Part shown: in pieces, positions 1-47,966 of the stretch
How the letters are laid out: every line of letters begins with the position of its first letter
Numbering within the stretch: the stretch's first letter is position 1
From: a virus
IMG/VR virus record: IMGVR_UViG_3300042991_000223
Location: 1-47,966 of that record
Strand: one strand, 5' to 3'
Length of the DNA: 47,966 nucleotides
Notes under the pieces: model-generated
The model's input: only the letters and a program-made list of their open reading frames with translations
What the model was told of the DNA's origin: nothing
The model's database searches: none
Made by a program: the position numbers and the translations under genes

Positions 1-280
1 CAGCACTCATTTCCGTACCAGTTGGCAAGGTTGCCGTACCAGCACCGGTTACTGACGTATGGATAACGATACCGCCTAAGATTTGGGCAATCGTTGGGGT
101 AGCATTTTGAGCGTCAATATTGGTAATGGTTTGGTTTAACACGGGGTTAGGCATCACTGGTATACCTGTCTGAGTGACAGCACCAGTAACCGTTAATGTT
201 CCACCAATAGTTACGTTCTTGTCGGTGTTTAAGCCGTCAATTTTAACTACTGGTACATAGTTTTCAATCTTTAATGACAT
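1..280 (-). CDS. Small virion-associated protein, copy 1 (C-terminus cut by window edge)
   Basis: The start codon is at 280-278 and the reading frame runs off the left edge after 93 codons. The visible protein begins MSLKIENYVP and is nearly identical to the N-terminal part of the complete 159-aa protein at 41640-42119. It lies just downstream of the decoration-like gene, separated by a G6/C6 hairpin. The sequence is Thr/Ala/Val/Gly-rich and beta-prone, typical of small capsid- or tail-surface proteins. The exact role is unknown. Confidence 0.7.
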   Translation of the reverse strand, partial: MSLKIENYVPVVKIDGLNTDKNVTIGGTLTVTGAVTQTGIPVMPNPVLNQTITNIDAQNATPTIAQILGGIVIHTSVTGAGTATLPTGTEMSA

Positions 281-303
281 AAATTATTCCTTAATGGGTT
301 TTT

Positions 304-319
304 GGGGGGCGTACCCCCC
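304..319 (-). other. G6/C6 hairpin between two virion genes
   Basis: Six G and six C flank a 4-base loop (cgta), giving a perfect GC stem in the 64-base gap between 345 and 280. On the minus strand it is followed by AAAAACCC, so it could act as a weak terminator or as a stabilising hairpin that sets the ratio of the two flanking proteins. The other haplotype keeps the stem near 42142-42157. Confidence 0.5.
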
Positions 320-344
320 ACCCTGTTTGTAAAGTTACTATATT

Positions 345-1070
345 TTATTGGTCAATTGTTAAGTAAGCACTTCGGTATTCAGTGTCTACTAAGGCTTCTG
401 AAGCAACACCAATTTGGTGTTCGCCAGCAGCGTCTAATGCTTCAACAGCTCCGACTGTACTTGAGCCGATTGTAAGAGCCAAGCCCTTGGCAACCGCTTC
501 ATCAGCTAATACTGCACACTCGCCACCAGTTTGTAACCAACCATAGTAAGCATTTGTAATGCTCACATTTGGTACACCAACTGCTTGGTCAGCTTGGTCA
601 GCAATGGAGATTAATACTCCACTCCAAGGGTTAGCCTTTAAAGTGATTTCAGAAGTTGAAGCTACCAAAGCTACTTCTATTGGGTCTACTAATCTGACCT
701 CTAGAGGTAAGCTACCAGCATTGGCAGAGTGACCATCAATTAAGTAGTTGATACCTTCGCCTGTTGCGTCATTTACAACAAGATAACCATCTTTATACTG
801 GTCGGCTGTAACTGCCGTAGCACCTATAGTCGCAGTCACTTTTGTTACACCAGCTGCAACATTAGCGTCTACTGCTATATTGGTGTGATGAGCAACTAAG
901 TCTCCATCAATACAAAGTTTGCCGGGGGCAAGCGTTACACCGCCAGCTAGAGCGTATCGGTAGATACGTCCGTCACGTGTGAATCCTTTAGTACCTAGAG
1001 GAAGCTCTTTTGTTGAACTAATGTCTCTAAAGTCTTGTGCGTACACTACACTATTGGCTGTTAGACCCAT
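345..1070 (-). CDS. Capsid decoration/stabilising-type protein, copy 1
   Basis: A 241-aa protein immediately downstream of the major capsid gene, with a good ribosome site (AGGAGAAAAT before ATG). It is rich in Ala, Val, Thr and Gly, with no membrane segment and a well-conserved C-terminal half (ending LTIDQ). Position after the coat gene and composition suggest a head decoration or cement protein of the DUF2190-like kind; I cannot confirm the family by eye. The homologue at 42183-42905 is 240 aa and differs mainly in the middle. It presumably binds the outer capsid surface. Confidence 0.6.
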   Translation of the reverse strand: MGLTANSVVYAQDFRDISSTKELPLGTKGFTRDGRIYRYALAGGVTLAPGKLCIDGDLVAHHTNIAVDANVAAGVTKVTATIGATAVTADQYKDGYLVVNDATGEGINYLIDGHSANAGSLPLEVRLVDPIEVALVASTSEITLKANPWSGVLISIADQADQAVGVPNVSITNAYYGWLQTGGECAVLADEAVAKGLALTIGSSTVGAVEALDAAGEHQIGVASEALVDTEYRSAYLTIDQ

Positions 1071-1088
1071 AATATTTTCTCCTTATCG

Positions 1089-2159
1089 TTAAACTGTTGA
1101 TATTCCAGTCAGCTTGCCATGTCTGCGAGTTGAACCAGAGATTAAGTTGCCGAGCATAATGAACTGGCCGATTTGTGCATACTGGTTGTATGGTTTGTCG
1201 AAGCCACTCCATTGGATTGGATAACTCTTTTGATATTCGCTGTAAACTGAATCTACCCCAGCGTTGTTGACTTTGTAAGAAGTCAGACCAACACCTTGCA
1301 GGCTGTACCAGTTGATGTACTCTTCGTTTAAGAAGAACATAGCACCGCTATCGCACTTTTCGTCAGCTACGATTGGTATGCCTCTCCAACATAGAGCTTC
1401 AAATCCGTAGTTGCCTTTTAGAGATTCTTGGTCTTTAAAGGTTACACCGGGTTTGCTATAGGTCGTGATATTAACACGGCTTAGAGCGTCATAGTTGGCT
1501 GTTATTGTTGGCTGGAATAGACTTTCCATCAAGTCAAAGACTGTCTCAGTCGTGACTATAATTGATGGTCGTTGGCGTTTGCTGGAAGCTGCCGAAGCAC
1601 CTCTCATGATTGTAGCTATGTTAGCAAAACTTACTGCACCACCGCCAGCTGCTGCGACTGTTGAGTTAAGCATTGGGTAAGTAGTACGAGAAAGACCTGC
1701 GTAGGTACTAGTGTTGCCACCAGCGTCCACAATTCCACCAAGTCCTAAGAAATCATCTCCAACACCAATTCCGTAAAGCTGGTCTCCCATACTGTCAAGC
1801 ATGGCGTTCTGGCTCTCTTCTAAGGTAATTTTGATAAGGTCTAGAACTTCACCATCAGTCTTATTAAGACTTGCTTCACCGCCAGCTACCGATACGTTTT
1901 GGTAGAACTGAGCATGTGAAAAGGTTTGGCGAACCCTTGTATCTTGCAGTGCTGTGTCAAAGTTGCCGACACCGCTAAATGTGCCACCTGTGGTTGGTTT
2001 GGCAAACTGCAATGGAATAAGTATTTGTCTACCACTCCATTTTTTAGTCTCACGCATGAACAAGCGAGACATGAAGACGTTGCTATTTAATACTCCGTCA
2101 ATAGACGCAGGTACATAGCTCTCTTCTGTGATTGATATTACTCTGTTTGATAGAGCCAT
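1089..2159 (-). CDS. Major capsid protein, copy 1
   Basis: A 356-aa protein placed between scaffold and decoration genes, the standard site of the coat gene. It begins MALSNRVISITEE and lacks membrane segments or low complexity. By hand alignment it differs from copy 2 (42924-43994) at about 27 of 356 residues, without gaps; changes cluster near residues 165-190, which may be a surface-exposed loop. An HK97-type fold is assumed from context (scaffold, portal and GpA-type terminase), not proven by motif. Ribosome site AAAGGAG is 7 bases from ATG. It has its own promoter at 2226-2254. Confidence 0.85.
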   Translation of the reverse strand: MALSNRVISITEESYVPASIDGVLNSNVFMSRLFMRETKKWSGRQILIPLQFAKPTTGGTFSGVGNFDTALQDTRVRQTFSHAQFYQNVSVAGGEASLNKTDGEVLDLIKITLEESQNAMLDSMGDQLYGIGVGDDFLGLGGIVDAGGNTSTYAGLSRTTYPMLNSTVAAAGGGAVSFANIATIMRGASAASSKRQRPSIIVTTETVFDLMESLFQPTITANYDALSRVNITTYSKPGVTFKDQESLKGNYGFEALCWRGIPIVADEKCDSGAMFFLNEEYINWYSLQGVGLTSYKVNNAGVDSVYSEYQKSYPIQWSGFDKPYNQYAQIGQFIMLGNLISGSTRRHGKLTGISTV

Positions 2160-2191
2160 CTTTCATCTCCTTTTACTTATTAAATTAAAAA

Positions 2192-2213
2192 CCCCTCGTC
2201 CAATGCCGAAGGG
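2192..2213 (-). other. 5' leader hairpin of capsid gene, copy 1
   Basis: On the minus strand CCCTTCG pairs with CGAGGG around a short loop, followed by GTTTTT. It resembles a terminator, yet it starts only a few bases after the predicted start site of the promoter at 2226-2254. It therefore lies at the very 5' end of the capsid transcript, where it could stop read-through from the scaffold gene and also protect the capsid mRNA. The counterpart at 44023-44043 keeps the pairing with different bases. Confidence 0.6.
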
Positions 2214-2225
2214 CTAATTGTTAGT

Positions 2226-2254
2226 AACATAGCACAAATTGTCTGTTTTTTCAA
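2226..2254 (-). promoter_or_regulatory. Capsid-gene promoter, copy 1
   Basis: On the minus strand TTGAAA and TATGTT are separated by 17 bases, with TGC before the -10 (extended -10). It lies just after the scaffold stop codon. The other haplotype keeps the layout (TTGCAA, 17 bases, TGC-TATGTT at 44056-44084) while the spacer has diverged, which supports function. It would give the coat protein its own high-level transcript. Confidence 0.65.
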
Positions 2255-2260
2255 GGGGTA

Positions 2261-3082
2261 CTAGAGAGAGCCAAGCACTTTAGCATGCACATCATCTAGG
2301 CTAACACCTCTTGGTGGAGCTTCAATAGTTCTACCCTGAGTTTTGGGGTCGGTGGCTACACCAGAACCGCTACCCATAACTTTAGAACCAGCTTTTTTCT
2401 TGGCCACTACCTCTTCTTGTTTCTTCTTTTCTACTTCGTCTTCTCTATGTCGGTACTCATAAATCTCATAAGCATGGGTAAAGCTATCAATTCTGCGTCC
2501 AGCTTCTAGTTCTTCTCCCATCAGTGCAAAAACCTTGTCGGCCTTGTCTTTTTCAATCTTAAGCTCAGCAATTTCCTTGTCCCAGCCATCTTGCATGGCC
2601 TTGATACTAGCTTCACGTTCAGTCTTGGCATTTAGTTCTTCAACAGATTTTAAATCATCTTGGCGATTCTTCTCTAAGACTGCCATATCAGCAACAAAAA
2701 TCCCCCATGATTTATAGGTCTCTGGTTCAAAGTCATCTGGTACTTCGTCTAGGCTCGCGAACTCATGGGTTTTGCCATCTGAGTCTTTAACGCTTATTTT
2801 CTGGGGAGCTGGGGGTGTATCATCTGCCTTAATATCTTCTTTGGGTTTAACCTCTTCCTCATCATCTGAATCTTGTTCTTCTTCGTCCTCGTCATTTGCT
2901 TTCAATTCCTCATCATCTGAATCTTGTTCTTCTTCGTCCTCGTCATTTGCTTTCAATTCCTCTTCTTCAAGCAAGCGTTGGGCTTTGGCGTGTTCAGCTT
3001 CTAAATCAGTAGGTGTTGCCACCACCTCTTCTTTTTTATCGTCCTCTTTTTTTATTTCGTCTTGGTTAGGTGTGTCCGTCAT
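2261..3082 (-). CDS. Scaffolding protein, copy 1
   Basis: A 273-aa, highly charged protein between portal and coat genes. The N-terminal third is a run of Asp/Glu with Lys; the middle (about residues 130-235) is Lys/Glu-rich and probably helical or coiled coil; the C-terminus (GVSLDDVHAKVLGSL) is the part best kept in copy 2 and may bind the coat. This is the usual build of a podovirus scaffold that guides procapsid assembly and is then lost. It contains an exact 17-residue tandem duplication absent from copy 2. Ribosome site AGGAG is about 10 bases upstream. Confidence 0.75.
   Translation of the reverse strand: MTDTPNQDEIKKEDDKKEEVVATPTDLEAEHAKAQRLLEEEELKANDEDEEEQDSDDEELKANDEDEEEQDSDDEEEVKPKEDIKADDTPPAPQKISVKDSDGKTHEFASLDEVPDDFEPETYKSWGIFVADMAVLEKNRQDDLKSVEELNAKTEREASIKAMQDGWDKEIAELKIEKDKADKVFALMGEELEAGRRIDSFTHAYEIYEYRHREDEVEKKKQEEVVAKKKAGSKVMGSGSGVATDPKTQGRTIEAPPRGVSLDDVHAKVLGSL
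2855..2962. repeat. 51-bp tandem duplication inside scaffold gene
   Basis: Two adjacent perfect 51-bp units (starting 2855 and 2906, with a few further matching bases) encode a repeated 17-residue acidic block, ELKANDEDEEEQDSDDE. The reading frame is kept. Copy 2 has no such repeat and a different acidic stretch, so this looks like a recent slippage duplication in a length-tolerant region. Confidence 0.9.
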
Positions 3083-3120
3083 TGGGCTTATTCTCCTAAT
3101 TACTTTATTACTTTAATAGT

Positions 3121-5202
3121 TTACATCATTTTAGGTTTTGGCTTGCCTGATTCTTTACTTGCTTGTGGTTTAGTTTGGTCGGCATTGTAGTTTACTTCGC
3201 CAGTCTTAGTAGGAGCTACTGGAGTGGCTTGGTTGTCTTGGGGTGGCATAGCCTGATTAGCTACCTGTTGCTGTTCAGCTTCTTTCTGAGCAACTGCGTC
3301 TAATTCTTCCTGAGTCGGCATTTGAGTCATCAGAGCTTCAAGTTGGACTTGAGCTTGCTGTTGAGCCATACGCAAGTACTCAATGTAGTACTGCTTAGAT
3401 TTCTCAGATTGTTTAGCAAAGTCTCCTGTGGCCATATAATTGTTCATGAACTTGAAGTACGTGCCATCATATTCGTCACGTGGTAGTGGGACTTCTTCGG
3501 CATTAAGTATCTGTATATCCTTAAAGGCCGCTCGGCTAAACTCTTCTTCTTTAACGTTCTGCATGAACTGGTCGGGACTGGCGGTATAAAGCATAAAGCG
3601 TTCTAACATCTTCTTAGGAGATGGCATATTACCACCATTAGCGACTTCATAAACGGTTAATGGGTCAATCATGTTCTTAGATACTAGGTCTGAGACCCAC
3701 TTTTGTTGTGAACCTTTGGAGATAGGTTGGGTTGAACCAGCTTGGACTGAGACATCAATACCATCTTCAATCAGGTCAGAGTTTAAGATTATAAAGTCAA
3801 ACTGGCCGTCTTCGCCAACCGCTTTAAAGTAGTGGTCTTCGGTGTAATAGACCTTAAACATCTGAAGTAAATAGCGGTAGAACTTGGTGGCCATCTTTTC
3901 AACAGCACGTCCAACCTCGTCCATGCGAGTGTAATCTTGCTGTTGCTGAAGCTTATCTTGGCCAAGAGTGACGTTTTTGGAAGATTCGCCCCTAGATATA
4001 TCATGTGTACCAAAGATGTTATCAATGGCATAACGTAGGTCGTTTTTATCCTCTATCACGTAATTGGGTAGTTGAGGTGGAGAGATTCGTGCCATTGCAC
4101 TTCTAACGTCCCCTTTAACTCCTACTTTTTCATCTGGCGAACCAATTAGTTTGGAGATGTCTTCTTTAGTAATCATTGTGGTATTAAATACCATGCCACT
4201 ACCTGATTGGTCAGCGTTCTCCATAATCTGAAAACCACGCTTGTCTAGAATATTTTGTAAGGGTGCGGCTTGTTCCATCATAGAGGTTTGGTCAATGTAT
4301 GAAGAGCCATCATTCAACCAGTTAATACCAATAAAAGGCGGTTCGGGGTTATCAAGTAGGTTAGCGGTTCTTCCCTTTTTAGCGTCATAATTCCAGTTAG
4401 GGTTCTTTTCTTTATGGATAATGTTCGCAAAGTGTTCGTCTGCTACACATAGACCTGACATCAACTTAGAGCCTTCAAAGTACTTAAACCAAACTTCCCA
4501 TACAGTAATTTTTCTAGATAGCTGGGTCTTATAAGCTACTAGATTACCTTTAGAGTCTCTGCGATTAACGCCTAAGATTTCATAAATAACCTGTTGGGAC
4601 TCAGGGAACATAGCTAAAAGCTCTTCGCCAGTCTTGTTTTTAATCCTTTGAGCTATAAATCGGGGGATTTCGTTCATCTTAGCGTCTTTATCTACAATAA
4701 TATCGGCTGGATCTATGGATTCTGAGACTACATCTCCGAACTCGCCAATACTGGGGTCAAAGCGAAGTTTAATAAACCCAGCTCTTTTTAGAAGCAGGTT
4801 TCTAACTTGGAGTCTAAATAAGTCAGATATTTGGTACTTCTCAGCGTAGGCTTCAACAGATTTAGTAACATCTTTAGCAATCTGCATTGAGACCATCGTG
4901 TCTTGGGCTGGCATAATCTCAGGCTGGGCTATTCGTGAGTTACAAACAGAGACAATCGTTTCAACCGAGACAAAGGCTCGGTTTTCTTGATACATGTTAC
5001 CCTCTTGGTAATCATAAATATCTTTATCTGCCCAGTGATTAGGTAGCCACATATTCATATTGGAGCGTCTAATAGATTTTAGTTTTTGGGTATCTTCCCA
5101 ATAGACGGTAGATTCTTCTATTGGTTTTTTGAGTAAAGTTAAAATGTCGCTATCTGAGAGTTCTAGTGCGAAGGCTGCTCCTGATTCGTCTTCTAAATCC
5201 AT
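3121..5202 (-). CDS. Portal protein, copy 1
   Basis: A 693-aa protein between terminase and scaffold genes. Length, position and content match the long P22-like podovirus portals: an N-terminal domain with many Trp/Asn residues, a central conserved block around GTHDISRG and QQDYTRMDE, and a Gln-rich, proline-ending C-terminal tail (about residues 610-693) like the barrel or crown end. It forms the dodecameric ring through which DNA is packaged and ejected. Copy 2 (44917-46980, 687 aa) is collinear with scattered changes and a shorter tail. The start has a strong site (AAGGGGATAAC before ATG). Confidence 0.8.
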   Translation of the reverse strand: MDLEDESGAAFALELSDSDILTLLKKPIEESTVYWEDTQKLKSIRRSNMNMWLPNHWADKDIYDYQEGNMYQENRAFVSVETIVSVCNSRIAQPEIMPAQDTMVSMQIAKDVTKSVEAYAEKYQISDLFRLQVRNLLLKRAGFIKLRFDPSIGEFGDVVSESIDPADIIVDKDAKMNEIPRFIAQRIKNKTGEELLAMFPESQQVIYEILGVNRRDSKGNLVAYKTQLSRKITVWEVWFKYFEGSKLMSGLCVADEHFANIIHKEKNPNWNYDAKKGRTANLLDNPEPPFIGINWLNDGSSYIDQTSMMEQAAPLQNILDKRGFQIMENADQSGSGMVFNTTMITKEDISKLIGSPDEKVGVKGDVRSAMARISPPQLPNYVIEDKNDLRYAIDNIFGTHDISRGESSKNVTLGQDKLQQQQDYTRMDEVGRAVEKMATKFYRYLLQMFKVYYTEDHYFKAVGEDGQFDFIILNSDLIEDGIDVSVQAGSTQPISKGSQQKWVSDLVSKNMIDPLTVYEVANGGNMPSPKKMLERFMLYTASPDQFMQNVKEEEFSRAAFKDIQILNAEEVPLPRDEYDGTYFKFMNNYMATGDFAKQSEKSKQYYIEYLRMAQQQAQVQLEALMTQMPTQEELDAVAQKEAEQQQVANQAMPPQDNQATPVAPTKTGEVNYNADQTKPQASKESGKPKPKMM

Positions 5203-5251
5203 ATTGGTTATCCCCTTAAAAAGTTACGTCCGACTGGGGCTACTTAAAGTC

Positions 5252-5260
5252 ATTATACCA
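5252..5260 (-). promoter_or_regulatory. Extended -10 promoter before portal gene, copy 1
   Basis: TGG-TATAAT on the minus strand, about 50 bases before the portal start. The same TGGTATAAT is kept in copy 2 (47029-47037) although flanking bases differ. No good -35 is visible. The leader that follows can fold (GACT...AGTC here; GGGG...CCCC in copy 2), matching the promoter-plus-hairpin layout seen elsewhere in the late region. Confidence 0.55.
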
Positions 5261-5298
5261 CGCCCGAACTATATCTGTACCCCAAGAAAAGTTTGCGA

Positions 5299-5574
5299 TT
5301 AGATTACTACGTTTACAACAGTAGCATTAACTACCATACGATAATTGGCCTTGCATAGTTTACAACGTATATTGATAGCTATGCCAAAATCTTCTACATC
5401 TAGCGGTATATCAATAATTTTATCTATTCTACCTTTGAAATCGCATATAGTCCGCTTGCAAAACATACAACTAAGCTTATCTACCTGACCTTTATGGTTA
5501 TTTACTAAATAGACTGTGATGGGTGGGTCTTCGCTTCTATCACGCTTTTGGGTTATTGGGTAATCGCCGTACAT
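5299..5574 (-). CDS. Small zinc-ribbon protein, copy 1
   Basis: A 91-aa protein with two CxxC pairs (CMFC near residue 36, CKLC near residue 72), the mark of a four-Cys zinc ribbon. It sits between the terminase and portal genes in both copies, so it is part of the head module; a role in packaging or in late regulation is possible. The protein is almost unchanged between copies except for its last ten residues, where copy 2 switches to another sequence next to an AP2-domain remnant. Confidence 0.7.
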   Translation of the reverse strand: MYGDYPITQKRDRSEDPPITVYLVNNHKGQVDKLSCMFCKRTICDFKGRIDKIIDIPLDVEDFGIAINIRCKLCKANYRMVVNATVVNVVI

Positions 5575-5705
5575 TATTTAGCCCCCCTTGACAGGTTTTT
5601 ATGTTCTAATATATGAAAAGCCGCTATTTTCGGCACTTGTTTAAGCCCTCTACCCCTGTATTTGACAAGAAAACTTATTATACCATATCCACCTCTGTTA
5701 CTCAT
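5574..5705 (-). CDS. 43-aa basic peptide after terminase, copy 1
   Basis: A short frame begins at ATG 5705-5703 behind a consensus ribosome site (AGGAGG, 7 bases) and ends with TAATG overlapping the start of the zinc-ribbon gene. It encodes a basic peptide (MSNRGGYGIISF...). Copy 2 has a 47-aa counterpart at 47458-47601 that stays open despite compensating one-base shifts. This and the tight coupling argue for real translation. Function unknown. Confidence 0.6.
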   Translation of the reverse strand: MSNRGGYGIISFLVKYRGRGLKQVPKIAAFHILEHKNLSRGAK

Positions 5706-5706
5706 T

Positions 5707-7371
5707 TTATAACCTCCTTTTTCTAGTTGCCCTTATACTTTTTTCTATCAACTGTTCCATGTTGCCAAGTACCGCTCTTACTGACACCTTATCATTATGC
5801 ACCCCATAAGACCGCCTACCCCTGAAATTAGACACGGGTTTTGACGCCACCACACTCCCCCCCTCACCGCTCTTAATTTGGAACGACAAACCAACAGTGT
5901 AATAAGCCAAAGCATGCAACCAGTGGTCAGGACGGTTCGTCTTAGTCTGCCACTTCGCTTTCAATATCCCTCTCGTATCAGGCTCTACTATCCTATAAGC
6001 CTGTTCACAGTGGTAAATCAACTCCTCTAAATCCCTGGGTGTCTGAAAAAACTTAATTTTTTTGGTAGAAATATTAGACGCAACCAAATCCAAAAGTTTA
6101 GTCCTATCAGATTGAAGTACCCCGAACTGCTGGCCCTCCTTCCGCTTTGACACTTCCATAGAAGCCGAATTATCCGCCGAATAATAATGCACAAAAACCC
6201 TCCCCAGATACTTCCTCGCCAACTGCTCTGGCACAGTAAAATCCGGCAAAGCGTCTATCACACAAGTAGCATCGTACAGCTTAATCAGCGTCTCTATATC
6301 CGACCACTCCGAAGACGCCCCATAGGCAAAAATCCCTTGAGGCGTTCCCATAACCCAATGCTTTATCTTACCGCTGTCACAGCCTATCACAACGTCTCTC
6401 TTCTCAACAGACTGCGGTATATTAGCTTCTAATATAGAAGTTCTATTTATCATAAACTCAGAAGCTTGATAGGGAAGTCCTAGAACGAAGTTATGGAAGA
6501 CATCGGTGGACATAGTTTTTTCTTGCTCTATTATTTTTTTTGCTGTAACCCAGGGAATCATCATCTGTGATAACCAGTACCCTCTGCGTGTTCTTCCTTT
6601 ATATTTGGCCACCCACTCCCCCCCCTGCCTGTCTTCATCTGTTAATACCCCACCACAAGAACCACATCTATATACTTGCTTATCCTTATCTACATAGTGT
6701 GCCTTTGTGTGCCTATCCTGCTCATACATCATATACATGTTGTGCTTACACCTGTGACATCTTATGAACCAGTGCTGTTGGTCACTGTCTTGGTATAGCT
6801 CATCTACTCCGAAGCCTGGCAAGCTTGGGTTGCTGAATCGCCAGAACCAGCCCCAGTCTGACGCTTGTAGACGGCTCTGGTACACTGTTAGCACTTGTTG
6901 GTCACTCCTATCGTACTCATCGGCTACAACGAGGTCTGCGGTGGTTGATATGGCCTCTCCTTCATGAAATGAACCTCTAAAGTATATGAATCTATCGCCT
7001 ACCTGTTTTAAGCTGGTGCTGTTGGTATTCTGTACCATTGCTTTAATAACAGGGTTACGCTCTATCATAGGGTTTACCTTAGGTGTTACGAACTCATGGA
7101 CAACGTTTCGGGTAGGTAAGACGTATATAACATTAAGTTTGAGGTAGTTAGCAGCGTGTATACTCTTTAAAATGGCTGCAACGCTCCAGCCAACTTGTGC
7201 TGACTTCATGATTACTTGGTCAGGTGAACAGTCAGAGTACGGTTTAAGCATGAATCTGTGCTTATCAAATTCAAACGGCTTCTGATTCTCATTAATAAAC
7301 TTATTATCTAGTACCCATAAAGCAGGATTGAGTATATGTAACTTAGCTCTTAATTCTTCTCTATCGTTCAC
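5707..7371 (-). CDS. terL: Terminase large subunit (GpA-like)
   Basis: A 554-aa DNA-packaging motor. The ATPase part shows a deviant Walker A (KSAQVGWS, residues 56-63) and Walker B (VVADEYD, acidic pair D151-E152). A Cys4 zinc site follows (CHRC and CGSC), as in GpA-family terminases. The nuclease part has GCDSG, an acidic VIDALPD and DHWLHALAYY near the C-terminus. It cuts concatemers and drives DNA into the procapsid at the portal. The start is GTG at 7371 with no clear ribosome site, right after a terminator. The C-terminal 122 residues of a second copy lie at 47598-47966. Confidence 0.9.
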   Translation of the reverse strand: MNDREELRAKLHILNPALWVLDNKFINENQKPFEFDKHRFMLKPYSDCSPDQVIMKSAQVGWSVAAILKSIHAANYLKLNVIYVLPTRNVVHEFVTPKVNPMIERNPVIKAMVQNTNSTSLKQVGDRFIYFRGSFHEGEAISTTADLVVADEYDRSDQQVLTVYQSRLQASDWGWFWRFSNPSLPGFGVDELYQDSDQQHWFIRCHRCKHNMYMMYEQDRHTKAHYVDKDKQVYRCGSCGGVLTDEDRQGGEWVAKYKGRTRRGYWLSQMMIPWVTAKKIIEQEKTMSTDVFHNFVLGLPYQASEFMINRTSILEANIPQSVEKRDVVIGCDSGKIKHWVMGTPQGIFAYGASSEWSDIETLIKLYDATCVIDALPDFTVPEQLARKYLGRVFVHYYSADNSASMEVSKRKEGQQFGVLQSDRTKLLDLVASNISTKKIKFFQTPRDLEELIYHCEQAYRIVEPDTRGILKAKWQTKTNRPDHWLHALAYYTVGLSFQIKSGEGGSVVASKPVSNFRGRRSYGVHNDKVSVRAVLGNMEQLIEKSIRATRKRRL

Positions 7372-7384
7372 TGTTTTAGTGTAA

Positions 7385-7414
7385 CAAAAAAGAGAGTTAT
7401 ATTGTAATAACTCC
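7385..7414 (-). terminator. Intrinsic terminator before terL
   Basis: On the minus strand GAGTTAT...ATAACTC forms a 7-bp stem around a 6-base loop, followed by TCTTTTTT. It ends transcripts from the small-gene group at 7454-8169 before they reach the large terminase gene, so terL is probably expressed at a low, read-through level or at another time. Confidence 0.75.
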
Positions 7415-7453
7415 CTTTGTTCGCTTTTTGTTCGTAGCCCTAAACTATCCTAC

Positions 7454-7771
7454 TTAAGTGTTCTGTACCATTGTTATCTCTTCTCCCATGTAGTTAATAC
7501 AATCTTTTACTGGGCATAAGCCTTTATAGCAATAGTGTTTGCAAAGGTGTTCTGTCTTATCTTCTTCTGTTCGCATTTCGTTCGCTTTTAATAGATTAGG
7601 GTGCTTTGGTCTTCTAACTCTATCAATCTCTGTTGTTTGTTTCTTCTTGGCGTTTCTTTTCATGCTTCGTTTGTGCCTGTTTAAGTTTGTAGTTAGCCAT
7701 AGGGGTTTATCTTCTATGCCTTGCCATATATTGAAGTCTTTGGCTCTAACATGTATTTGTACCCTGGGCAT
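7454..7771 (-). CDS. Hypothetical basic protein with C-terminal Cys cluster
   Basis: A 105-aa basic protein (many Lys/Arg in residues 30-65) with four Cys in a short span near the C-terminus (C-x3-C-x4-C-x4-C within CKHYCYKGLCPVKDC), which may bind zinc or iron. The start overlaps the stop of the upstream 35-aa membrane peptide (TAATG). It is the last gene before the terminator at 7385-7414. I do not recognise a family. A nucleic-acid-binding role is possible from charge alone. Confidence 0.6.
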   Translation of the reverse strand: MPRVQIHVRAKDFNIWQGIEDKPLWLTTNLNRHKRSMKRNAKKKQTTEIDRVRRPKHPNLLKANEMRTEEDKTEHLCKHYCYKGLCPVKDCINYMGEEITMVQNT

Positions 7772-7878
7772 TATTCGTTATCCTGTATCTGTCCTCTTCT
7801 TGGTATGCCAGTTATCATACAATAACCGGCTGCAATAAAGATTAAAGCTATGCATATATATATCTGTGTATCACTCAT
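7771..7878 (-). CDS. 35-aa single-span membrane peptide
   Basis: MSDTQIYICI starts a short frame with one hydrophobic stretch (about residues 6-24) and a charged tail. The stop overlaps the next start as TAATG, a coupling pattern used across this genome. The ribosome site is weak (GGAATAA). Unknown function. Confidence 0.5.
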   Translation of the reverse strand: MSDTQIYICIALIFIAAGYCMITGIPRRGQIQDNE

Positions 7879-7879
7879 G

Positions 7880-8095
7880 TTATTTATTCCTTTCTATCCT
7901 TTGTTGCCGTTGTAATTCATTTACCCACCTTATCGCAACACCCTTATAATGAGTATATGCACTTTGCCCATGTCTTGCTCCCCATGTTTTGTGTGGTGGT
8001 AACACTTGTGTATAGTGTGTGCCTGTATAATCAGTGATTAGTTTTTCCACCCCATACATTGCACAATCAGGGTTATAAAATACTCTTAAATGCAT
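7880..8095 (-). CDS. Hypothetical 71-aa protein
   Basis: A 71-aa soluble protein rich in His, Tyr and Arg, starting MHLRVFYNPD and ending in a basic helix (ELQRQQRIERNK). Its start overlaps the end of the 27-aa leader peptide at 8086-8169, so it is probably translated by coupling. It belongs to the short transcription unit started at the 8209-8237 promoter and ended at 7385. No family recognised. Confidence 0.55.
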   Translation of the reverse strand: MHLRVFYNPDCAMYGVEKLITDYTGTHYTQVLPPHKTWGARHGQSAYTHYKGVAIRWVNELQRQQRIERNK

Positions 8096-8169
8096 AGTAC
8101 GCCTTCGTAGAAAAAGCCTTTATATTCTTGGCTTATATCTATTACTTTGATATTTTGTGATTTGTACAT
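8086..8169 (-). CDS. 27-aa first peptide of the 8.2-kb operon
   Basis: ATG at 8169-8167 lies behind AGAAGGGGTCAC, the leader/ribosome-site motif used by several first genes here. The frame encodes MYKSQNIKVIDIS... and overlaps the next gene by 10 bases. It is the first frame after a near-consensus promoter, so translation is likely. It may simply couple translation to the next gene. Confidence 0.5.
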   Translation of the reverse strand: MYKSQNIKVIDISQEYKGFFYEGVLCI

Positions 8170-8208
8170 GTGTGACCCCTTCTATTAAATTACGTTTGTA
8201 CACCTCTT

Positions 8209-8237
8209 AATATACACACACTGAACAGATGTGTCAA
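8209..8237 (-). promoter_or_regulatory. Strong sigma70-type promoter
   Basis: TTGACA and TATATT on the minus strand with a 17-base spacer, close to consensus. It points at the small genes 8169-7454. It lies between the small terminase gene, whose stop is at 8263, and the first start at 8169. A house-keeping sigma promoter of this quality suggests early or constitutive expression. Confidence 0.8.
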
Positions 8238-8262
8238 TAGTAATTTTGTTGTAATATTGTGC

Positions 8263-8769
8263 TTATTCTTTAGCTGGTCTTTTTGTTTGTGCCATTAGCA
8301 TATCTAAGGTGTTATCTACTAACTGCCTAGATTCTGGCGTGTTTGGATCTAAGTTGTTTTGTTGGATAAATGTATTATAAGTATTCCCGGCATTTGCTTT
8401 GTCGGTTTCGGCTTCTGTATAGCCTTTTAGTTTTAAGGCGGTATCTAAGTACTTATGTCTTACAGCATAGTCTGGGTGTTCAACATCAGAGTCCTTGCCA
8501 TATATTTTAGTAGCGTCTAGCCCTTCCATTAAAACCTTGGTCAGTTTCTTGTCAGTACCGCCAGCTTTTTCTATTGCTTTTATAAAGCCCTGGCTTTTAG
8601 TCACGTTAGAAGGTGCTTTTTTGGCTACTTGTTCAGTGTAACCAGCTTCTATAAGAATAGCCCCGATCGTTTTAGGCTTCTTGGCTTTTAAATTGCCTAT
8701 GACTAAAGTAGCAGCCCGAATCTGTCGGGGCGTTGGTGGTGGTGTTCGCTTCTTCCTTGGCTTAGGCAT
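8263..8769 (-). CDS. terS: Terminase small subunit-like protein
   Basis: A 168-aa protein starting MPKPRKKRTPPPTPRQ. Residues about 14-60 fit the helix-turn-helix of small terminases (ATLVIGN...IGAILIEAGY...), with a basic N-terminus and a variable C-terminal end. It recognises phage DNA and loads the large subunit. I chose ATG 8769 rather than the upstream 8796 because AAGGAG sits 7 bases before it and the frame then overlaps the HNH stop only slightly. It is separated from terL by five small genes or signals, as in some podoviruses. Confidence 0.7.
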   Translation of the reverse strand: MPKPRKKRTPPPTPRQIRAATLVIGNLKAKKPKTIGAILIEAGYTEQVAKKAPSNVTKSQGFIKAIEKAGGTDKKLTKVLMEGLDATKIYGKDSDVEHPDYAVRHKYLDTALKLKGYTEAETDKANAGNTYNTFIQQNNLDPNTPESRQLVDNTLDMLMAQTKRPAKE

Positions 8770-9130: not shown

Positions 9131-9183
9131 AGTTTATACCATTATTGTGCGTAAATCAAATGTCGCAAAACGCTGCATACACA

Positions 9184-39400: not shown

Positions 39401-39571
39401 TGTATCAGTCATTGTAAAAGAGCTCAGCGACCCAGTGCCAGAAGCTGGGGCATTTTTATGGTAACGAGTATCGGTATTGATAGTTAGCACAGCCCCCGAA
39501 TTGATGGTCATCGCCTCACCAGCTGTTCTTGCTGCATTGTCTAAGTCTTGCGATACGGATATTGTTGCCAT
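36473..39571 (-). CDS. Large tail spike / adhesin
   Basis: A 1032-aa protein starting MATISVSQDLDNAARTAG and INSGAVLTINTDTRYHKNAP. The middle shows repeated short strands with Asn, Cys and aromatic residues (PEFTVTSAGNIDIQGC..., DLTFTDCHFQNR...), as in right-handed beta-helix spikes; the C-terminal 300 residues are more globular. This would be the main host-binding or polysaccharide-degrading spike. No catalytic motif seen. Codon choice is richer in C and G than in neighbours, suggesting transfer. Confidence 0.7.
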   Translation of the reverse strand: MATISVSQDLDNAARTAGEAMTINSGAVLTINTDTRYHKNAPASGTGSLSSFTMTDTTGGECLVDGRNVRWLPFTSGVGLVPAYDTNVVGFTSGATGKLLGVYTALNVAPTAVGGAMPASGFIKLKSASTAYNASESLTIGVATATTNGVDVTGWIEVILDDAANITIARAEKWTVRSEWFYLDNTTGASQVIQLPTCGGGANTMYPGVWIETGVGTGVYEFYPAQRYSASLASGWYSTAKGTDARSKFVEMQDGGAIRIGANSSGAYGYIPASGCKVRIPNVLMMSCATGSRAANSLPNATITTRPEFTVTSAGNIDIQGCLSTWYFNINQPYSVIIKNTAVVDNINLTECATSFTLEEFHTANYLNTDINNVTITSNLAGGTATKCKWGRTGTMASSDIGTYISYCKDLTFTDCHFQNRIFRTNAAAYAVYTAYSDNIKFIRPIMVGGALSYAVVTNAYVEDPIYADSYHTTSSATTPPLGVVTIGGGCVDAEVKGGDWWSGITNMNIDTAFLYIVGATNTRWHTCGTSAVPIVGGTTNRILYAVNDAGNNIGVEIKRVYFDDVGTTFYTSLNSSKGVVIENCASAYADTDLVFDCLDGLQKGLNCAAADTGFTSVYGTIFYNIFTAATTGRVGLTFNEDTATYASYVTKTGLTGASGFSSTGLLYLYNLNDVIEYEFPYYVLGYTAFAASNVVKGGSGTANLAVKYKIDINDGNGYGGTWKDATSANLSGETINETDGFKLKIQITCTTAGTNYLNSLYFSMTTTAVAQYTNYPLDTYTLTLTGLQTGTKVAVLETGTETLLKLLTVSGGQVSYTYPDADVGDGVDLAILAPEYLYQKITNYVLTSADASIPIVQNVDYGYVASSSETVTFNGTTKRIICDAATTSIDVVGVYSMWVDWALISNNLRYNAAFSELGGNTIDAVAGTSVPVYGFLTNSWKISPDEADHTLSVTGGVVLVSGGGDPFVDTAGAYTVRINYQQPVQAITVSTGGTTNVWYEPPTVAEIRSEVDDALTDYDPLTTGGFVGLSD

Positions 39572-41639: not shown

Positions 41640-42119
41640 CTACATTAAGGTCGTCAAGTAAGTTACCCATGTGTTAGCAGCCGAACAAGTGCTGATAATT
41701 TCCATGTGCTTGCCGGTTGTAACCGCAGCTGTACCACCAACCAAGGTGTGATTGGTGTTGGCTGTAATGGTTACGGTCTGGCCGCCATCATTGTAGTACA
41801 ACCATTTAACAGTTGAACCAACGGCTACGCCAGATACTCCAGCACTCATTTCCGTACCAGTTGGCAAGGTTGCCGTACCAGCACCGGTTACTGACGTATG
41901 GATAACGATACCGCCTAAGATTTGGGCAATCGTTGGGGTAGCATTTTGAGCGTCAATATTGGCAATGGTTTGGTTTAACACGGGGTTAGGCATTACTGGT
42001 ATACCTGTCTGGGTGACAGCTCCAGTAACCGCTAAAGTTCCACCAATAGCTACGTTTTTGTCGGTGTTTAAGCCGTCAATTTTGACTACTGGTACATAAT
42101 TTTCAATTTTTAATGACAT
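41640..42119 (-). CDS. Small virion-associated protein, copy 2 (complete)
   Basis: A 159-aa beta-rich protein, MSLKIENYVPVVKIDGL..., with short alternating strands (GGTLAVTGAVTQTG...) and an end (CSAANTWVTYLTTL) reminiscent of fibre-like or decoration proteins. The contig's left end (1-280) begins within its homologue, at the base matching 41840. Presumably a capsid surface protein. Confidence 0.65.
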   Translation of the reverse strand: MSLKIENYVPVVKIDGLNTDKNVAIGGTLAVTGAVTQTGIPVMPNPVLNQTIANIDAQNATPTIAQILGGIVIHTSVTGAGTATLPTGTEMSAGVSGVAVGSTVKWLYYNDGGQTVTITANTNHTLVGGTAAVTTGKHMEIISTCSAANTWVTYLTTLM

Positions 42120-42141
42120 AAAATTTCCTTAATGGGCTTTA

Positions 42142-42157
42142 GGGGGACGTACCCCCC
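42142..42157 (-). other. G5/C5 hairpin, copy 2
   Basis: GGGGG...CCCCC around acgta, the counterpart of the hairpin at 304-319; the stem survives although bases around it differ. Confidence 0.5.
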
Positions 42158-42182
42158 GCCCTGTTTGTAAAGTTAATATATT

Positions 42183-42905
42183 TTATTGATCTATTGTTAA
42201 GTAAGCACTGCGATATTCGGTGTCTACCAAAGCTTCGGAAGCGACACCAATTTGATATTCGCCAGCAGCGTCAAGAGCTTCAACAGCTCCAACTGTGCTA
42301 GAACCGATTGTCAGAGCTAAACCTTTGGCAACCGCTTCATCAGCTAAGACTGAACACTCACCACCGGTTTGTAACCAAGCATAGTAAGCTGCCGTAACAG
42401 CTACGTTTGGTACACCAACACATTGGTCAGCTTGGTCAGCGATTGATATTACAACGCCAGCCCAAGTATTAGCTTTTAAAGTATATTCGCTAGAAGTCGT
42501 TAAAGCTACTTCTATCGGATCAACCAAATTAACTACTAGAGTACCACTACCAGCGTGGGCAGCATGACCATTGATTAGGTAGTTAATACCTTCTCCATCA
42601 GCGTCATTTATTACTAGATAGCCGTCCTTATATTGATCAGCTGTTGCGGCTGTTGCACCCAAAGTAACACTTACTTCGGTTGCTCCAACTGTGGCTGCTG
42701 CCTGAACTGCTTGGTTAGTATGATTAGCCACTAAATCGGCATTGATACAAATCTTGCCGGGAGCTAAAGCGACTGCTCCAGCTAAACTGTATCTATAGAT
42801 ACGTCCGTCACGTGTTACGCCTTTAGTACCAAGAGACAGTTCCTTAGTAGAACTGATGTCTCTAAAGTCTTGTGCGTACACTACACTATTGGCTGTTAGA
42901 CCCAT
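42183..42905 (-). CDS. Capsid decoration/stabilising-type protein, copy 2
   Basis: A 240-aa protein collinear with 345-1070. The first 50 and last 80 residues are nearly the same; the middle carries most changes. Good ribosome site (AAGGAGAAT). Same inferred role as a decoration protein on the head. Confidence 0.6.
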   Translation of the reverse strand: MGLTANSVVYAQDFRDISSTKELSLGTKGVTRDGRIYRYSLAGAVALAPGKICINADLVANHTNQAVQAAATVGATEVSVTLGATAATADQYKDGYLVINDADGEGINYLINGHAAHAGSGTLVVNLVDPIEVALTTSSEYTLKANTWAGVVISIADQADQCVGVPNVAVTAAYYAWLQTGGECSVLADEAVAKGLALTIGSSTVGAVEALDAAGEYQIGVASEALVDTEYRSAYLTIDQ

Positions 42906-42923
42906 AATTTATTCTCCTTCTTA

Positions 42924-43994
42924 TTAAACAGTTGTTATTCCAGTAGCTTTACCATGTCGGCGGGTGCTACCAGAGATTAAGTTGCCGAGCATAATGAACT
43001 GACCGATTTGAGCATACTGATTGTATGGTTTGTCAAAGCCACTCCATTGGATTGGATAACTCTTTTGATATTCACTGTAGACTGAATCTACTCCAGCGTT
43101 GTTTACCTTGTAGGAAGTTAGCCCAACACCTTGCAGAGCATACCAGTTAATATATTCTTCGTTAAGGAAGAACATTACACCACTATCAGCTTTTTCGTCA
43201 GCTACGATGGGTATTCCTCTCCAACATAGAGCCTCAAAGCCATAATTACCTTTCAAAGAATCTTGGTCTTTGTAAGTAACGCCTGGTTTGCTGTAAGTAG
43301 TAATATTTACTCTGGATAGAGCATCGTAGTTAGCTGTAATAGTTGGTTGGAATAAACTCTCTAATAGATCCCAAACAGTTTCAGTTGTAACTACTATTGA
43401 AGGTCGTTGCCTTCTAGACGAAGCTGCACTTGCACCACGCATGACAGTTGCCATTAAGCTAAACGATAAAGCACCACTGTCAGCTGCTTGAACTGTTGAG
43501 TTCAACATCGTGTAAGTAGTACGGCTTAAACCAGCGTAGGTAGAGGTATTAGCACCTGCATCTACGATTCCACCTAAACCTAAGAAGTCGTCACCAGTAC
43601 CAATTCCGTAGAGTTGGTCGCCCATGCTATCAAGCATGGCGTTCTGAGATTCCTCTAAGGTTATTTTGATAAGGTCAAGAACTTCACCATCGGTCTTGTT
43701 AAGACTTGCTTCACCACCAGCTACCGATACGTTTTGGTAGAACTGAGCATGACTAAAGGTCTGCTTGACTCTTGTGTCTTGCAAAGCTGTGTCAAAGTTA
43801 CCGACTCCACTAAATGTTCCACCTGATGTGGGTTTAGCGAATTGAAGTGGGATTAAAATTTGTCTTCCACTCCATTTTTTAGTATCTCGCATGAATAAGC
43901 GAGATAAGAAGACATTGCTATTTAGAACACCATCAATAGATGCTGGTACATAGCTTTCTTCAGTGATTGTTATCACTCTGTTTGATAGAGCCAT
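42924..43994 (-). CDS. Major capsid protein, copy 2
   Basis: A 356-aa protein, same length as copy 1 and different at about 27 positions by hand count, mostly conservative (for example Ile/Val, Lys/Arg, Phe/Tyr). The cluster near residues 165-190 changes most. Ribosome site AAAGGAGAAAG. Promoter at 44056-44084. The strong protein conservation beside many synonymous changes shows both copies have been under selection. Confidence 0.85.
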   Translation of the reverse strand: MALSNRVITITEESYVPASIDGVLNSNVFLSRLFMRDTKKWSGRQILIPLQFAKPTSGGTFSGVGNFDTALQDTRVKQTFSHAQFYQNVSVAGGEASLNKTDGEVLDLIKITLEESQNAMLDSMGDQLYGIGTGDDFLGLGGIVDAGANTSTYAGLSRTTYTMLNSTVQAADSGALSFSLMATVMRGASAASSRRQRPSIVVTTETVWDLLESLFQPTITANYDALSRVNITTYSKPGVTYKDQDSLKGNYGFEALCWRGIPIVADEKADSGVMFFLNEEYINWYALQGVGLTSYKVNNAGVDSVYSEYQKSYPIQWSGFDKPYNQYAQIGQFIMLGNLISGSTRRHGKATGITTV

Positions 43995-44022
43995 AATCTT
44001 TCTCCTTTTTTAAATTAAAAAA

Positions 44023-44043
44023 CCCTTTGGCAATGCCGAAGGG
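44023..44043 (-). other. 5' leader hairpin of capsid gene, copy 2
   Basis: CCCTT...AAGGG with an inner GGC-att-GCC stem, followed by TTTTTT on the minus strand. It matches the hairpin at 2192-2213 in place, with compensating base changes. Confidence 0.65.
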
Positions 44044-44055
44044 CTAATTAAATAA

Positions 44056-44084
44056 AACATAGCACATTTTACTACATTTTGCAA
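44056..44084 (-). promoter_or_regulatory. Capsid-gene promoter, copy 2
   Basis: TTGCAA, 17 bases, TGC-TATGTT on the minus strand; counterpart of 2226-2254. Confidence 0.65.
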
Positions 44085-44090
44085 GGGGTA

Positions 44091-44885
44091 TTAAAGAGTA
44101 CCAAGTATCTTGGCGTGTACATCATCTAAACTTACACCTGATGGTGGAGCTTCTATAGTTCTACTAGCTGTGCTTGTATTATTTACAACACCAGAACCTG
44201 AACCCATAACTTTACCACCAGCTTTTTTCTTGGTTTCAGTTTCTTCTTTTTTCTTTTCTTCTTCTATTTTTTTGCTTAATCGGTATTCATAAATCTCAAA
44301 GGCATGAGTAAAGTTAGCAACTCTTCGTCCTTCTTGTAACTCAGTCGCTATAAATTCAAAGACAGCATCAGATTTTTCTTTATCAATTCCAAGAGTTTTA
44401 ATTTCTTCGTCCCATTCTTTTTGGATTTTTTCTATCGCTTCATCACGCTCAACTTTGGCGTTCAATTCCTCTAATTCCTTCTGGGTATCTTTTTGTTCCT
44501 TTTCAAGTAAAGCAAACTCTTTAACAGCTACTGCCCAAGATTTGTAGGTCTCAGGTTCAAAATCATCAGGCACTTCATCTAATGATGCAAACTCATGGCT
44601 TTCACCATCAGAGTCTTTAACAGTTATTTTTTTCTGGGGAACTTTGTCTGACTTATCCGATACAGTATCTGCTTTGGGCTGGGGTACTTCGGGAGCGGTG
44701 GGGACGGGAGTATCAGGTTCTTTAACGTCTTCAGGTTCAGGTTCTTCCACCTCTTCAGATTCATCTTCAGATTCATTTAACTCCTCTTCTTCAAGAAGTC
44801 GTTGGGCTTTAGCGTGTTCGGCTTCTAAATCAGTTGGTGTTATTTGTTCTTTTTCTTCTACTTTTTTAGGTTCTTCCGTAGGCAT
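44091..44885 (-). CDS. Scaffolding protein, copy 2
   Basis: A 264-aa acidic, helical protein collinear with 2261-3082. The N-terminal acidic region differs in sequence and has no 17-residue repeat; a Pro-rich stretch (PVPTAPEVPQ) replaces it. Conserved blocks are LEAEHAKAQRLLEEEEL, the SLDEVPDDFEPETYKSW segment and the C-terminal GVSLDDVHAKILGTL. Confidence 0.75.
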   Translation of the reverse strand: MPTEEPKKVEEKEQITPTDLEAEHAKAQRLLEEEELNESEDESEEVEEPEPEDVKEPDTPVPTAPEVPQPKADTVSDKSDKVPQKKITVKDSDGESHEFASLDEVPDDFEPETYKSWAVAVKEFALLEKEQKDTQKELEELNAKVERDEAIEKIQKEWDEEIKTLGIDKEKSDAVFEFIATELQEGRRVANFTHAFEIYEYRLSKKIEEEKKKEETETKKKAGGKVMGSGSGVVNNTSTASRTIEAPPSGVSLDDVHAKILGTL

Positions 44886-44916
44886 GGGCTTGCTCCTAAT
44901 TAATTACTATTCTATT

Positions 44917-46980
44917 CTACATCATTTTCGGTTGTTTTTCAGATTCTGGCGGTTTATTGGCTTCCTGGTTTACATTAACTGCTCCTGTTTTAGATGGGGC
45001 AGCAACTTGATTAGGAGCTGGAGGCATAGCCTGATTAGCTATTTGCTGTTGATCGGCTTCTTGCTGGGCAGCCACGTCAAGCTCTTCCTGAGTAGGCATT
45101 TGAGTCATTAAAGCTTCTAGTTGTCTCTGTGCTTGTTCTTGGGCTACTCGTAGGTATCCAATGTAATACATCTTAGTCTTTTCAGATTGCTTATCAAATT
45201 CTCCACTAGCCATATACTTATTCATAAACTTAAAGTAAATATCGTCATACTCATCTCTAGGTAGTGGGACTTCTTCGGCATTAAGAATCTGTATATCCTT
45301 GAAGGCAGCTCTACTAAAGTCTTCTTCTTTAGAAGCTTGCATAAAGGCGGCTGGGTCTGACTGGTAAAGCATAAATCTCTCTAACATCTTCTTTGGAGAT
45401 GGCATTGAACCACCACTGGCTACTTCGTAAATAGTCAAAGGGTCAATCAGACTCTGAGCTGCTAAATCAGCAACCCATTTTTGTTGGGTGCTTTTGCTTA
45501 TAGGTTGGGTAGACCCGGCTTCTACGCTAACATCAATTCCGTCTTCTATTAAATCAGAACTAACAATCACATAATCAAACTGTCCATCTTCACCAACTGC
45601 TTTGAAGTAATGGTCTTCGGTGTAGTAAACCTTCATCATCTGAAGTAAATAACGGTAATAAGTAGTAGCTTGTTTCTCTATAGCTCTACCTATCTCATCC
45701 ATTCGGGTATAGTCTTGTTGTTGCTGGAGTTTATCTTGTCCCAAAGTAATGTTCTTAGATTTCTCACCTCTAGATATATCGTGAGTACCAAAGATGTTAT
45801 CAATTGCATATCTTAGGTCGGTCTTATCTTCAATCACATAATTAGGTAGTTGAGGCGGATTGATTCGGGTCATTGCTGAACGAACATCACCCTTAACACC
45901 TATTTTCTCATCAGGAGAACCAATTAGTTTAGCGATGTCTTCTTTGGTAATCATGGTGGTATTAAAGACCATACCTGATCCCGACTGGTCGGCATTATCC
46001 ATAATCTGAAAGCCACGTTTATCCAAGATGTTTTGAAGTGGAGCGGCCTGTTCCATCATAGAGGTCTGGTCAATGTAGGAATTACCATCATTCAACCAGT
46101 TAATTGGAATAAAAGGTGGTTCGGGATTGTCTAGTAGATTACCACTTCTACCTTTTTTCATATCATAGTTCCAGTTAGGATTCTTGCCCTTGTAGATAAC
46201 GTGGGCAAAGTTCTCATCTACTACACAAACGCCTGATTGGAGCTTGTCGTCTTCAAAATACTTAAACCATATCTCATAAACTGTAACCTTATTAGCTACC
46301 TGAGATTTGTAAGCAACTAAATTGCCTTTTCTATCTCTACGATTGACTCCCAAAATCTCATAAATAGTTTGAGTAGCTTCAGGGAAGTCAGCTATTAATT
46401 CTTCACCAGTCTTATTCCTTATCTTCTGGGCTAGAAATCTTGGGATTTCATTCATCTTAGCGTCTTTATCTACAATAATGTCTTCTGGTTCTATGTTCTC
46501 AGTCACAATCTCACCAAACTCACCAACATTCGGGTCAAAGCGGAGTTTAATGAAGCCACCTCTTTTGATCATTAAGTTTCTAGTCTGCAATCTAAATATG
46601 TCAGATACTCGGTATCTCTCGGTATAAGCCTCTACTACCTTTGCTACGTCTTTAGCTAGTTGGATAGATACCATTGTATCTTGAGATGGCATAATCTCTG
46701 GTTGGGCAACTCTAGCATTACAAACCGCCACAATCGTTTCTACCGATACAAAAACTCGGTTCTCCATGTACATATTGCCTTCTTGGTAGTCATAAATATC
46801 TTTATCAGTCCAATGGTTAGGCAACCACATGTTCATATTCTGTTTTCTAACCAATTTTAGTTTTTGGACATCATTCCAATAAGTTTCAGACTCATGAAAT
46901 GGTTTTTTAAGTAACGTTAAGATATCGTTATCTTTGAGTTTTAAGGCAAAGGCTGCACCTGTTTCATCTTCTAAGTCCAT
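44917..46980 (-). CDS. Portal protein, copy 2
   Basis: A 687-aa protein collinear with 3121-5202. The GTHDISRGE and QQQQDYTRMDE blocks and most of the N-terminal domain are kept. The Gln-rich C-terminal tail is shorter and diverged. Same role as the packaging and ejection ring. Confidence 0.8.
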   Translation of the reverse strand: MDLEDETGAAFALKLKDNDILTLLKKPFHESETYWNDVQKLKLVRKQNMNMWLPNHWTDKDIYDYQEGNMYMENRVFVSVETIVAVCNARVAQPEIMPSQDTMVSIQLAKDVAKVVEAYTERYRVSDIFRLQTRNLMIKRGGFIKLRFDPNVGEFGEIVTENIEPEDIIVDKDAKMNEIPRFLAQKIRNKTGEELIADFPEATQTIYEILGVNRRDRKGNLVAYKSQVANKVTVYEIWFKYFEDDKLQSGVCVVDENFAHVIYKGKNPNWNYDMKKGRSGNLLDNPEPPFIPINWLNDGNSYIDQTSMMEQAAPLQNILDKRGFQIMDNADQSGSGMVFNTTMITKEDIAKLIGSPDEKIGVKGDVRSAMTRINPPQLPNYVIEDKTDLRYAIDNIFGTHDISRGEKSKNITLGQDKLQQQQDYTRMDEIGRAIEKQATTYYRYLLQMMKVYYTEDHYFKAVGEDGQFDYVIVSSDLIEDGIDVSVEAGSTQPISKSTQQKWVADLAAQSLIDPLTIYEVASGGSMPSPKKMLERFMLYQSDPAAFMQASKEEDFSRAAFKDIQILNAEEVPLPRDEYDDIYFKFMNKYMASGEFDKQSEKTKMYYIGYLRVAQEQAQRQLEALMTQMPTQEELDVAAQQEADQQQIANQAMPPAPNQVAAPSKTGAVNVNQEANKPPESEKQPKMM

Positions 46981-47028
46981 ATAGTCCCCTTATTTAAAAG
47001 TTACGTCCGCTGGGGCTTCTTAAACCCC

Positions 47029-47037
47029 ATTATACCA
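47029..47037 (-). promoter_or_regulatory. Extended -10 promoter before portal gene, copy 2
   Basis: TGG-TATAAT on the minus strand, then GGGG...CCCC hairpin in the leader. Conserved with 5252-5260. Confidence 0.55.
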
Positions 47038-47041
47038 CGAA

Positions 47042-47206
47042 CTATAATCGTACCTCTAGGAAACTTTGTAATTTTTTTATAGCTTCAGCTTTATCTTTAA
47101 ACAATCCAAGACTATATCTTTGGTTGTTACGCATTACTTGGACGCACCATTTATTAACATTTTTAGCCCAATGTATATTTCTGACACCAGATTTATTTGG
47201 TATGTA
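47042..47206 (-). pseudogene. AP2-domain remnant of a homing endonuclease
   Basis: A 54-codon open stretch, closed by TGA upstream (47207-47209) and ending in TAG, reads SGVRNIHWAKNVNKWCVQV... and YSLGLFKDKAEAIKKLQ. This is the AP2 DNA-binding domain often attached to phage HNH homing nucleases (SGVxGVxWxKxxxKWxAxI...LGxFxxxEEA). There is no start codon and no HNH part, so it is a decayed fragment. It overlaps the end of the zinc-ribbon gene. In copy 1 only the last few codons can be aligned (near 5277-5297). Confidence 0.65.
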
Positions 47207-47468
47207 TCACAATATCTGAATTAACTACCATACGATAATTGGCCTTGCATAGTTTGCAACGTATATTTATAGCAATTCCAAAATCCTCTACATCAAGTGG
47301 TATATCTATAATCTTATCTATCCGACCCTTAAAATCGCATATAGTACGCTTGCAGAACATACAACTAAGTTTATCAACATGACCCTTATGATTATTGATT
47401 AAATAAACTGTAATGGGTGGGTCTTCACTTCTATCTCGCTTCTGCTCATTGGGATAATCAGCGTACAT
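47193..47468 (-). CDS. Small zinc-ribbon protein, copy 2
   Basis: A 91-aa protein nearly the same as 5299-5574, with CMFC and CKLC. The last ten residues (NSDIVIHTK) differ from copy 1 (NATVVNVVI) exactly where the AP2 remnant begins, so the end of the gene was probably exchanged when that element came or went. Confidence 0.7.
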   Translation of the reverse strand: MYADYPNEQKRDRSEDPPITVYLINNHKGHVDKLSCMFCKRTICDFKGRIDKIIDIPLDVEDFGIAINIRCKLCKANYRMVVNSDIVIHTK

Positions 47469-47601
47469 TTTTAGCCCTTGACAAGTTTTCGCAAAAAATA
47501 TGTTCTAATATGTACCAGCCCGCTTTTTTGGACAACAAATTAGCCACTCTACCCCATATACTTGACAAAAAACCTATTATAACATGTCTACCCCTGTTCA
47601 T
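47458..47601 (-). CDS. 47-aa basic peptide after terminase, copy 2
   Basis: ATGA overlap with the terminase stop, and the end overlaps the zinc-ribbon start by 11 bases. Compared with the 43-aa copy at 5574-5705 the frame is kept although one-base indels shift a few codons in between. This supports translation. Unknown function. Confidence 0.5.
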   Translation of the reverse strand: MNRGRHVIIGFLSSIWGRVANLLSKKAGWYILEHIFCENLSRAKNVR

Positions 47602-47966
47602 GGTATTCTCCTTTTTCTAGTTGCCCTAATACTACGTTCTATCAACTGCTCCATATTACCTAGTACCGCTCTAACCGATACCTTATCATTATGCACCCCA
47701 TAAGACCTTCTGCCAAGATTACTGACAGGCTTCTTGGCTAGTACCCCACCACCCTCACCACTCTTTATCTGAAAGCCCAACCCCACCGTATAGTAAGCCA
47801 AAGCATGCAACCAGTGGTCAGGTCTATTAGTCTTAGTCTGCCACCTAGCTTTCAATATCCCCCTGGTATCAGGCTCTACCACCCTATAAGCTTGCTCACA
47901 ATGGTAAATCAACTCCTCTAAATCCTTGGGATTCTGAAAAAATTTAATTTTCTTTAGAGTAATGTT
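47598..47966 (-). CDS. terL: Terminase large subunit, copy 2 (N-terminus cut by window edge)
   Basis: The C-terminal 122 residues of a GpA-like terminase; the rest lies beyond the window. It is collinear with the end of 5707-7371, including LIYHCEQAYR, DTRGILKA and the nuclease-domain DHWLHALAYYTVG, and ends in TGA overlapping the next ATG. Confidence 0.85.
   Translation of the reverse strand, partial: NITLKKIKFFQNPKDLEELIYHCEQAYRVVEPDTRGILKARWQTKTNRPDHWLHALAYYTVGLGFQIKSGEGGGVLAKKPVSNLGRRSYGVHNDKVSVRAVLGNMEQLIERSIRATRKRRIP

Follow-up and report, generated by a model that had tools for sequence, protein, structure and literature searches.

The window, that is, the whole stretch of 47,966 nucleotides analysed here (IMG/VR record IMGVR_UViG_3300042991_000223), is very probably an assembly artefact, in which one turn of a circular phage genome of ~42 kb runs on into 6 kb of sequence from a second, related phage. 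That a 41.84-kb circle wraps around through two haplotypes had been put forward as probable in a preliminary description of this DNA, and this is now supported by a repeated block of the size of an assembly k-mer, a toy assembly graph, a gene restored at the point of closure and relatives that carry a single head module. The phage is in a little-described group of podovirus-like genomes, and a megablast search with positions 1-20000 of the window gave no match among annotated phages. The features discussed below are collected in Table 1.

Table 1. Positions in the window of the inferred circular unit, the two head modules and other genes (., no strand; MCP, major capsid protein)
Feature	Position	Strand	Remarks
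Inferred circular genome, one unit	1-41839	.	41,839 bp; most genes on the minus strand
Block X, copy 1	1-123	.	First bases of the contig; read as branch node of the assembly graph
Block X, copy 2	41840-41962	.	Inside the small virion gene
Small virion gene	41640-42119	-	159 aa; spans the junction
Head module A	345-7371	-	241 aa, MCP, probable scaffold, portal, 91 aa, complete terL
MCP (A)	1089-2159		356 aa
Probable scaffold (A)	2261-3082		273 aa
Portal (A)	3121-5202		693 aa
terL (A)	5707-7371		Complete
Head module B	42183-47966	-	Second haplotype; first product 240 aa; 3' part only of terL
MCP (B)	42924-43994		356 aa
Probable scaffold (B)	44091-44885		264 aa
Portal (B)	44917-46980		687 aa
91-aa gene (B)	47193-47468		91 aa
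GroEL	9985-11607	-	540 aa
HNH endonuclease	11604-12089		Between GroEL and GroES
GroES	12089-12370	-	93 aa; weak score
DNA methyltransferases	13845-14573; 14889-15308		N6_N4_Mtase and Dam families
YqaJ recombinase	17878-18489
Tail-region protein	23951-30169		2072 aa
Tail-region protein	36473-39571		1032 aa

Two collinear ends and a single shared block

The two copies of block X are identical over their 123 bases, as the preliminary description had it, with the first mismatch at base 124. This is the only 123-mer present twice in the 47,966 bases, one of its copies is the start of the contig, and the next-longest identical run between copies A and B measures 53 bp. The first and last ~6.1 kb of the window are collinear, with ~76% DNA identity overall (by BLASTN, 75.8% for 1-5295 against 41840-47068 and 80.7% for 5326-6063 against 47220-47954). 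The proposed repetition of the head genes in the same order, from the small virion gene to terL, was likewise confirmed, the right-hand terL being incomplete. The earlier picture of an identical block followed by divergence has to be amended in one respect: the block is exact, but there is no abrupt collapse of identity, which falls stepwise through 94, 93, 88, 86, 82 and 68% per 100 bp on moving away from it. Exact searches of the viral collection, either with 60 bases of the shared block or with the final 47 bases of copy B, returned no match; neighbouring contigs of the proposed graph thus did not come to light there, a point against the wrap-around.

Module A has PHROGs matches to a major head protein, a portal and a terminase, together with an NCBIfam match to capsid_maj_Podo; its 273-aa product, like the 264-aa counterpart in module B, is probably the scaffold, as judged from gene position. 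The terL of module B is interrupted by the contig end at 47966 and nothing lies upstream of position 1, so that a second complete terL is not visible in the window.

Divergence of the two head modules

The two MCPs differ at 27 of their 356 residues, exactly the number that had been estimated, and the nucleotide differences between their genes fall 42, 23 and 144 times on codon positions 1, 2 and 3, respectively. This excess at third positions, along with the low dN/dS, rules out sequencing error as the source of the differences between the copies and upholds the earlier statement that these are too many for it. Across the head genes dN/dS ranges from 0.07 to 0.23 where computable, which indicates that both modules have been kept functional by selection. 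Synonymous divergence is high along the modules, with dS values of 1.05 for the 240-aa gene, 1.16 for the MCP, 1.43 for the probable scaffold and 1.25 for the 91-aa gene, and saturation in the portal, but it is only 0.07 for the 159-aa junction gene, whose two versions differ by 3 residues. Judging from the sequences, this jump in dS from 0.07 to more than 1 appears to be a recombination border between two mosaic phages and not the trace of a single duplication; copy B would thus come from a co-occurring relative near-identical at the junction, an instance of ordinary mosaicism. Gene by gene, wherever full-length genes were compared, modules A and B are closer to one another than to any relative, the next closest complete relative being G001, and this sister relationship is neutral for the origin of the window from two phages.

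Closure of the inferred circle and single-headed relatives

Joining position 41839 to position 1 restores an intact ORF of 159 aa (480 nt). The resulting unit of 41,839 bp matches in size three closed relatives, G001 (IMGVR_UViG_3300048833_000041), G009 (3300006805_000013) and G017 (3300020219_000004), which measure 41,607, 39,811 and 42,276 bp with their end overlaps and 41,480, 39,688 and 42,167 bp after subtracting them. Each of the three has a single MCP, and G001 and G009 a single terL. Moreover, the order module A, terL, early genes and tail genes agrees with that of the circular G001 and G009. None of 44 records (43 virus records and one MAG) held two full MCPs; three of them gave two MCP matches, which in each case corresponded to the halves of a single gene.

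How the contig may have been assembled

The MEGAHIT recipe in use at JGI runs through k values of 23, 43, 63, 83, 103 and 123 (PMC6478937; PMC6243002), and the length of block X equals the largest of them. Work on COBRA established that contig ends produced by breaks of the de Bruijn graph overlap by exactly the maximal k, for both MEGAHIT and metaSPAdes (PMC10914622). In this line, the ends of the closed relatives overlap by exactly 123 bp in G009 and by 127 bp in G001, but overlaps of 109 and 114 bp are also found in the family, which makes the length of 123 suggestive of k and not diagnostic. In MEGAHIT, IDBA-UD and metaSPAdes, moreover, local coverage ratios are known to decide which branches are removed or cut off (PMC8021871). 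The assembler was presumably MEGAHIT at k=123, with coverage driving the choice of branch.

A toy graph at k=123, built from the circle 1-41839 and a second haplotype in which copy B follows the last part of the tail region, yielded two unitigs, 1-41962 with X at both ends and 41840-47966 with X at its start, and joining them at X gives back the window base for base. The origin in a branching assembly graph suggested by the preliminary description is supported by this result, since the graph reproduces the ends of the window. When a true tandem duplication was modelled instead, with 1.5 kb of random sequence in place of the unseen part, the graph broke on both sides of X.

The sequence of events may then have been as follows. 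A phage whose genome of ~41.84 kb assembles as a circle, running from X through head module A and terL to the early genes, then to the lysis and tail genes and again to X, would have been present together with a related phage of type B, which shared at least the word X in the small virion gene with it, was probably of high identity also in the adjoining gene, and had a head module diverged to ~76% DNA identity. The tail region would be common to both phages through recent homologous exchange. At X the graph would have one path in, from the tail, and two paths out, into A and into B; the assembler presumably detached the link from X to A and walked from the tail through X into B. The contig would therefore start at X and A, go once round the circle and continue into B until the path of B ended inside terL. 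The join of the tail to module A is our inference, as the contig itself reads from the tail into B.

Other readings of the duplicated head module

That the contig reads in this direction, and that local coverage rules usually retain the better covered branch, could mean that the real genome is the one joining the tail to B, with module A, the early genes and the tail coming from another phage, so that the 41.84-kb circle would be a hybrid and the chimaera would lie elsewhere. We regard this as improbable, because the path from module A to the tail holds no repeated 123-mer that could form a second junction, and because the order from A through terL and the early genes to the tail is the one seen in the circular relatives. 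A true tandem duplication, in which a single phage would carry two diverged coat proteins, portals and terminases and form mixed or alternative capsids, is very unlikely in our judgement. It would agree with two copies that are intact and under purifying selection and that, in all full-length genes compared, resemble each other more than any other known relative. It would, however, demand a genome of at least ~49 kb, which would strain a capsid suited to the 39.7-42.2 kb of the closed relatives; no relative with two MCPs was found in the 44 records, the graph would be interrupted on either side of X, and a uniform old event would not leave a dS of 0.07 beside values above 1.

Homologous ends around a full genome length could also be expected of a heterozygous, terminally redundant (headful) molecule or of two tandem prophages, to which we give hardly any credence. 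A single rare molecule would not emerge from a short-read assembler, and a broken graph accounts better for ends that are ~24% diverged and for a contig start placed 123 bases, to the base, ahead of the first mismatch. In addition, a scan of part of the ORFs showed no integrase.

Host hints and other genes

The closest annotated phage by MCP is the TM7 phage DolZOral124_53_65 (36.8% identity), and one match in the genome collection (38%) lies on a short contig from a Candidatus Berkelbacteria MAG. A more distant MCP relative (30%) in G035 (36226 bp; L083:10001-10972) contains seven in-frame TGA codons, four of them at glycine columns of which two are invariant, which resembles the UGA=Gly code of Gracilibacteria/Absconditabacteria. 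Altogether, the TM7 phage, the Berkelbacteria MAG and the UGA codons hint, at the level of sequence, at hosts in the Patescibacteria, which we offer as a lead.

Genes for GroEL and, with a weak score, GroES flank an HNH endonuclease gene, and GroEL was present in 12 of the 31 related records searched, the three closed relatives among them. Two DNA methyltransferase genes lie close together, and a YqaJ recombinase gene was also recognised. In the tail region, the 2072-aa protein has no PHROGs or Pfam match, and its C-terminal half finds 44-45% identity in G001 and G009. The 1032-aa protein has relatives of 54-81% identity in four contigs of up to 155 kb (L014, L015, L016 and L017) that carry no close relative of the window MCP, which suggests that this gene may be widely exchanged.

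Comparison with known systems and meaning for the record

If the window is an over-run circle, the record is ~6.1 kb too long, misclassed as linear and mixes the genes of two phages, with the consequence that its length, completeness and gene counts are wrong; its appropriate form would be trimmed to ~41.84 kb and circular. A screen for contigs whose first k bases recur internally and then diverge would reveal other hidden circular genomes. The underlying biology, co-occurring phages with a near-identical junction gene and diverged heads, is ordinary mosaicism.

The nearest known counterparts are the uncultivated podovirus-like relatives G001, G009 and G017, with MCPs 88, 79 and 75% identical to that of the window; the first two share its gene order including GroEL, and the third has GroEL too, but each has a single head module in a genome of ~40-42 kb. 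As regards the assembly, the window is like the 'self_circular' contigs of COBRA (PMC10914622), in which the first k bases return one genome length later (123 bp in G009, 127 bp in G001), and differs from them in running 6,004 bp past the overlap into a diverged haplotype, so that a test for end repeats misses the circle and IMG/VR classes the record as linear. With strain-chimaera contigs (PMC7299287, PMC8021871) it has in common two related genomes, one shared word and a mixed contig; unlike them, its chimaera looks like the duplication of a gene module, an appearance that arises because the genome is circular.
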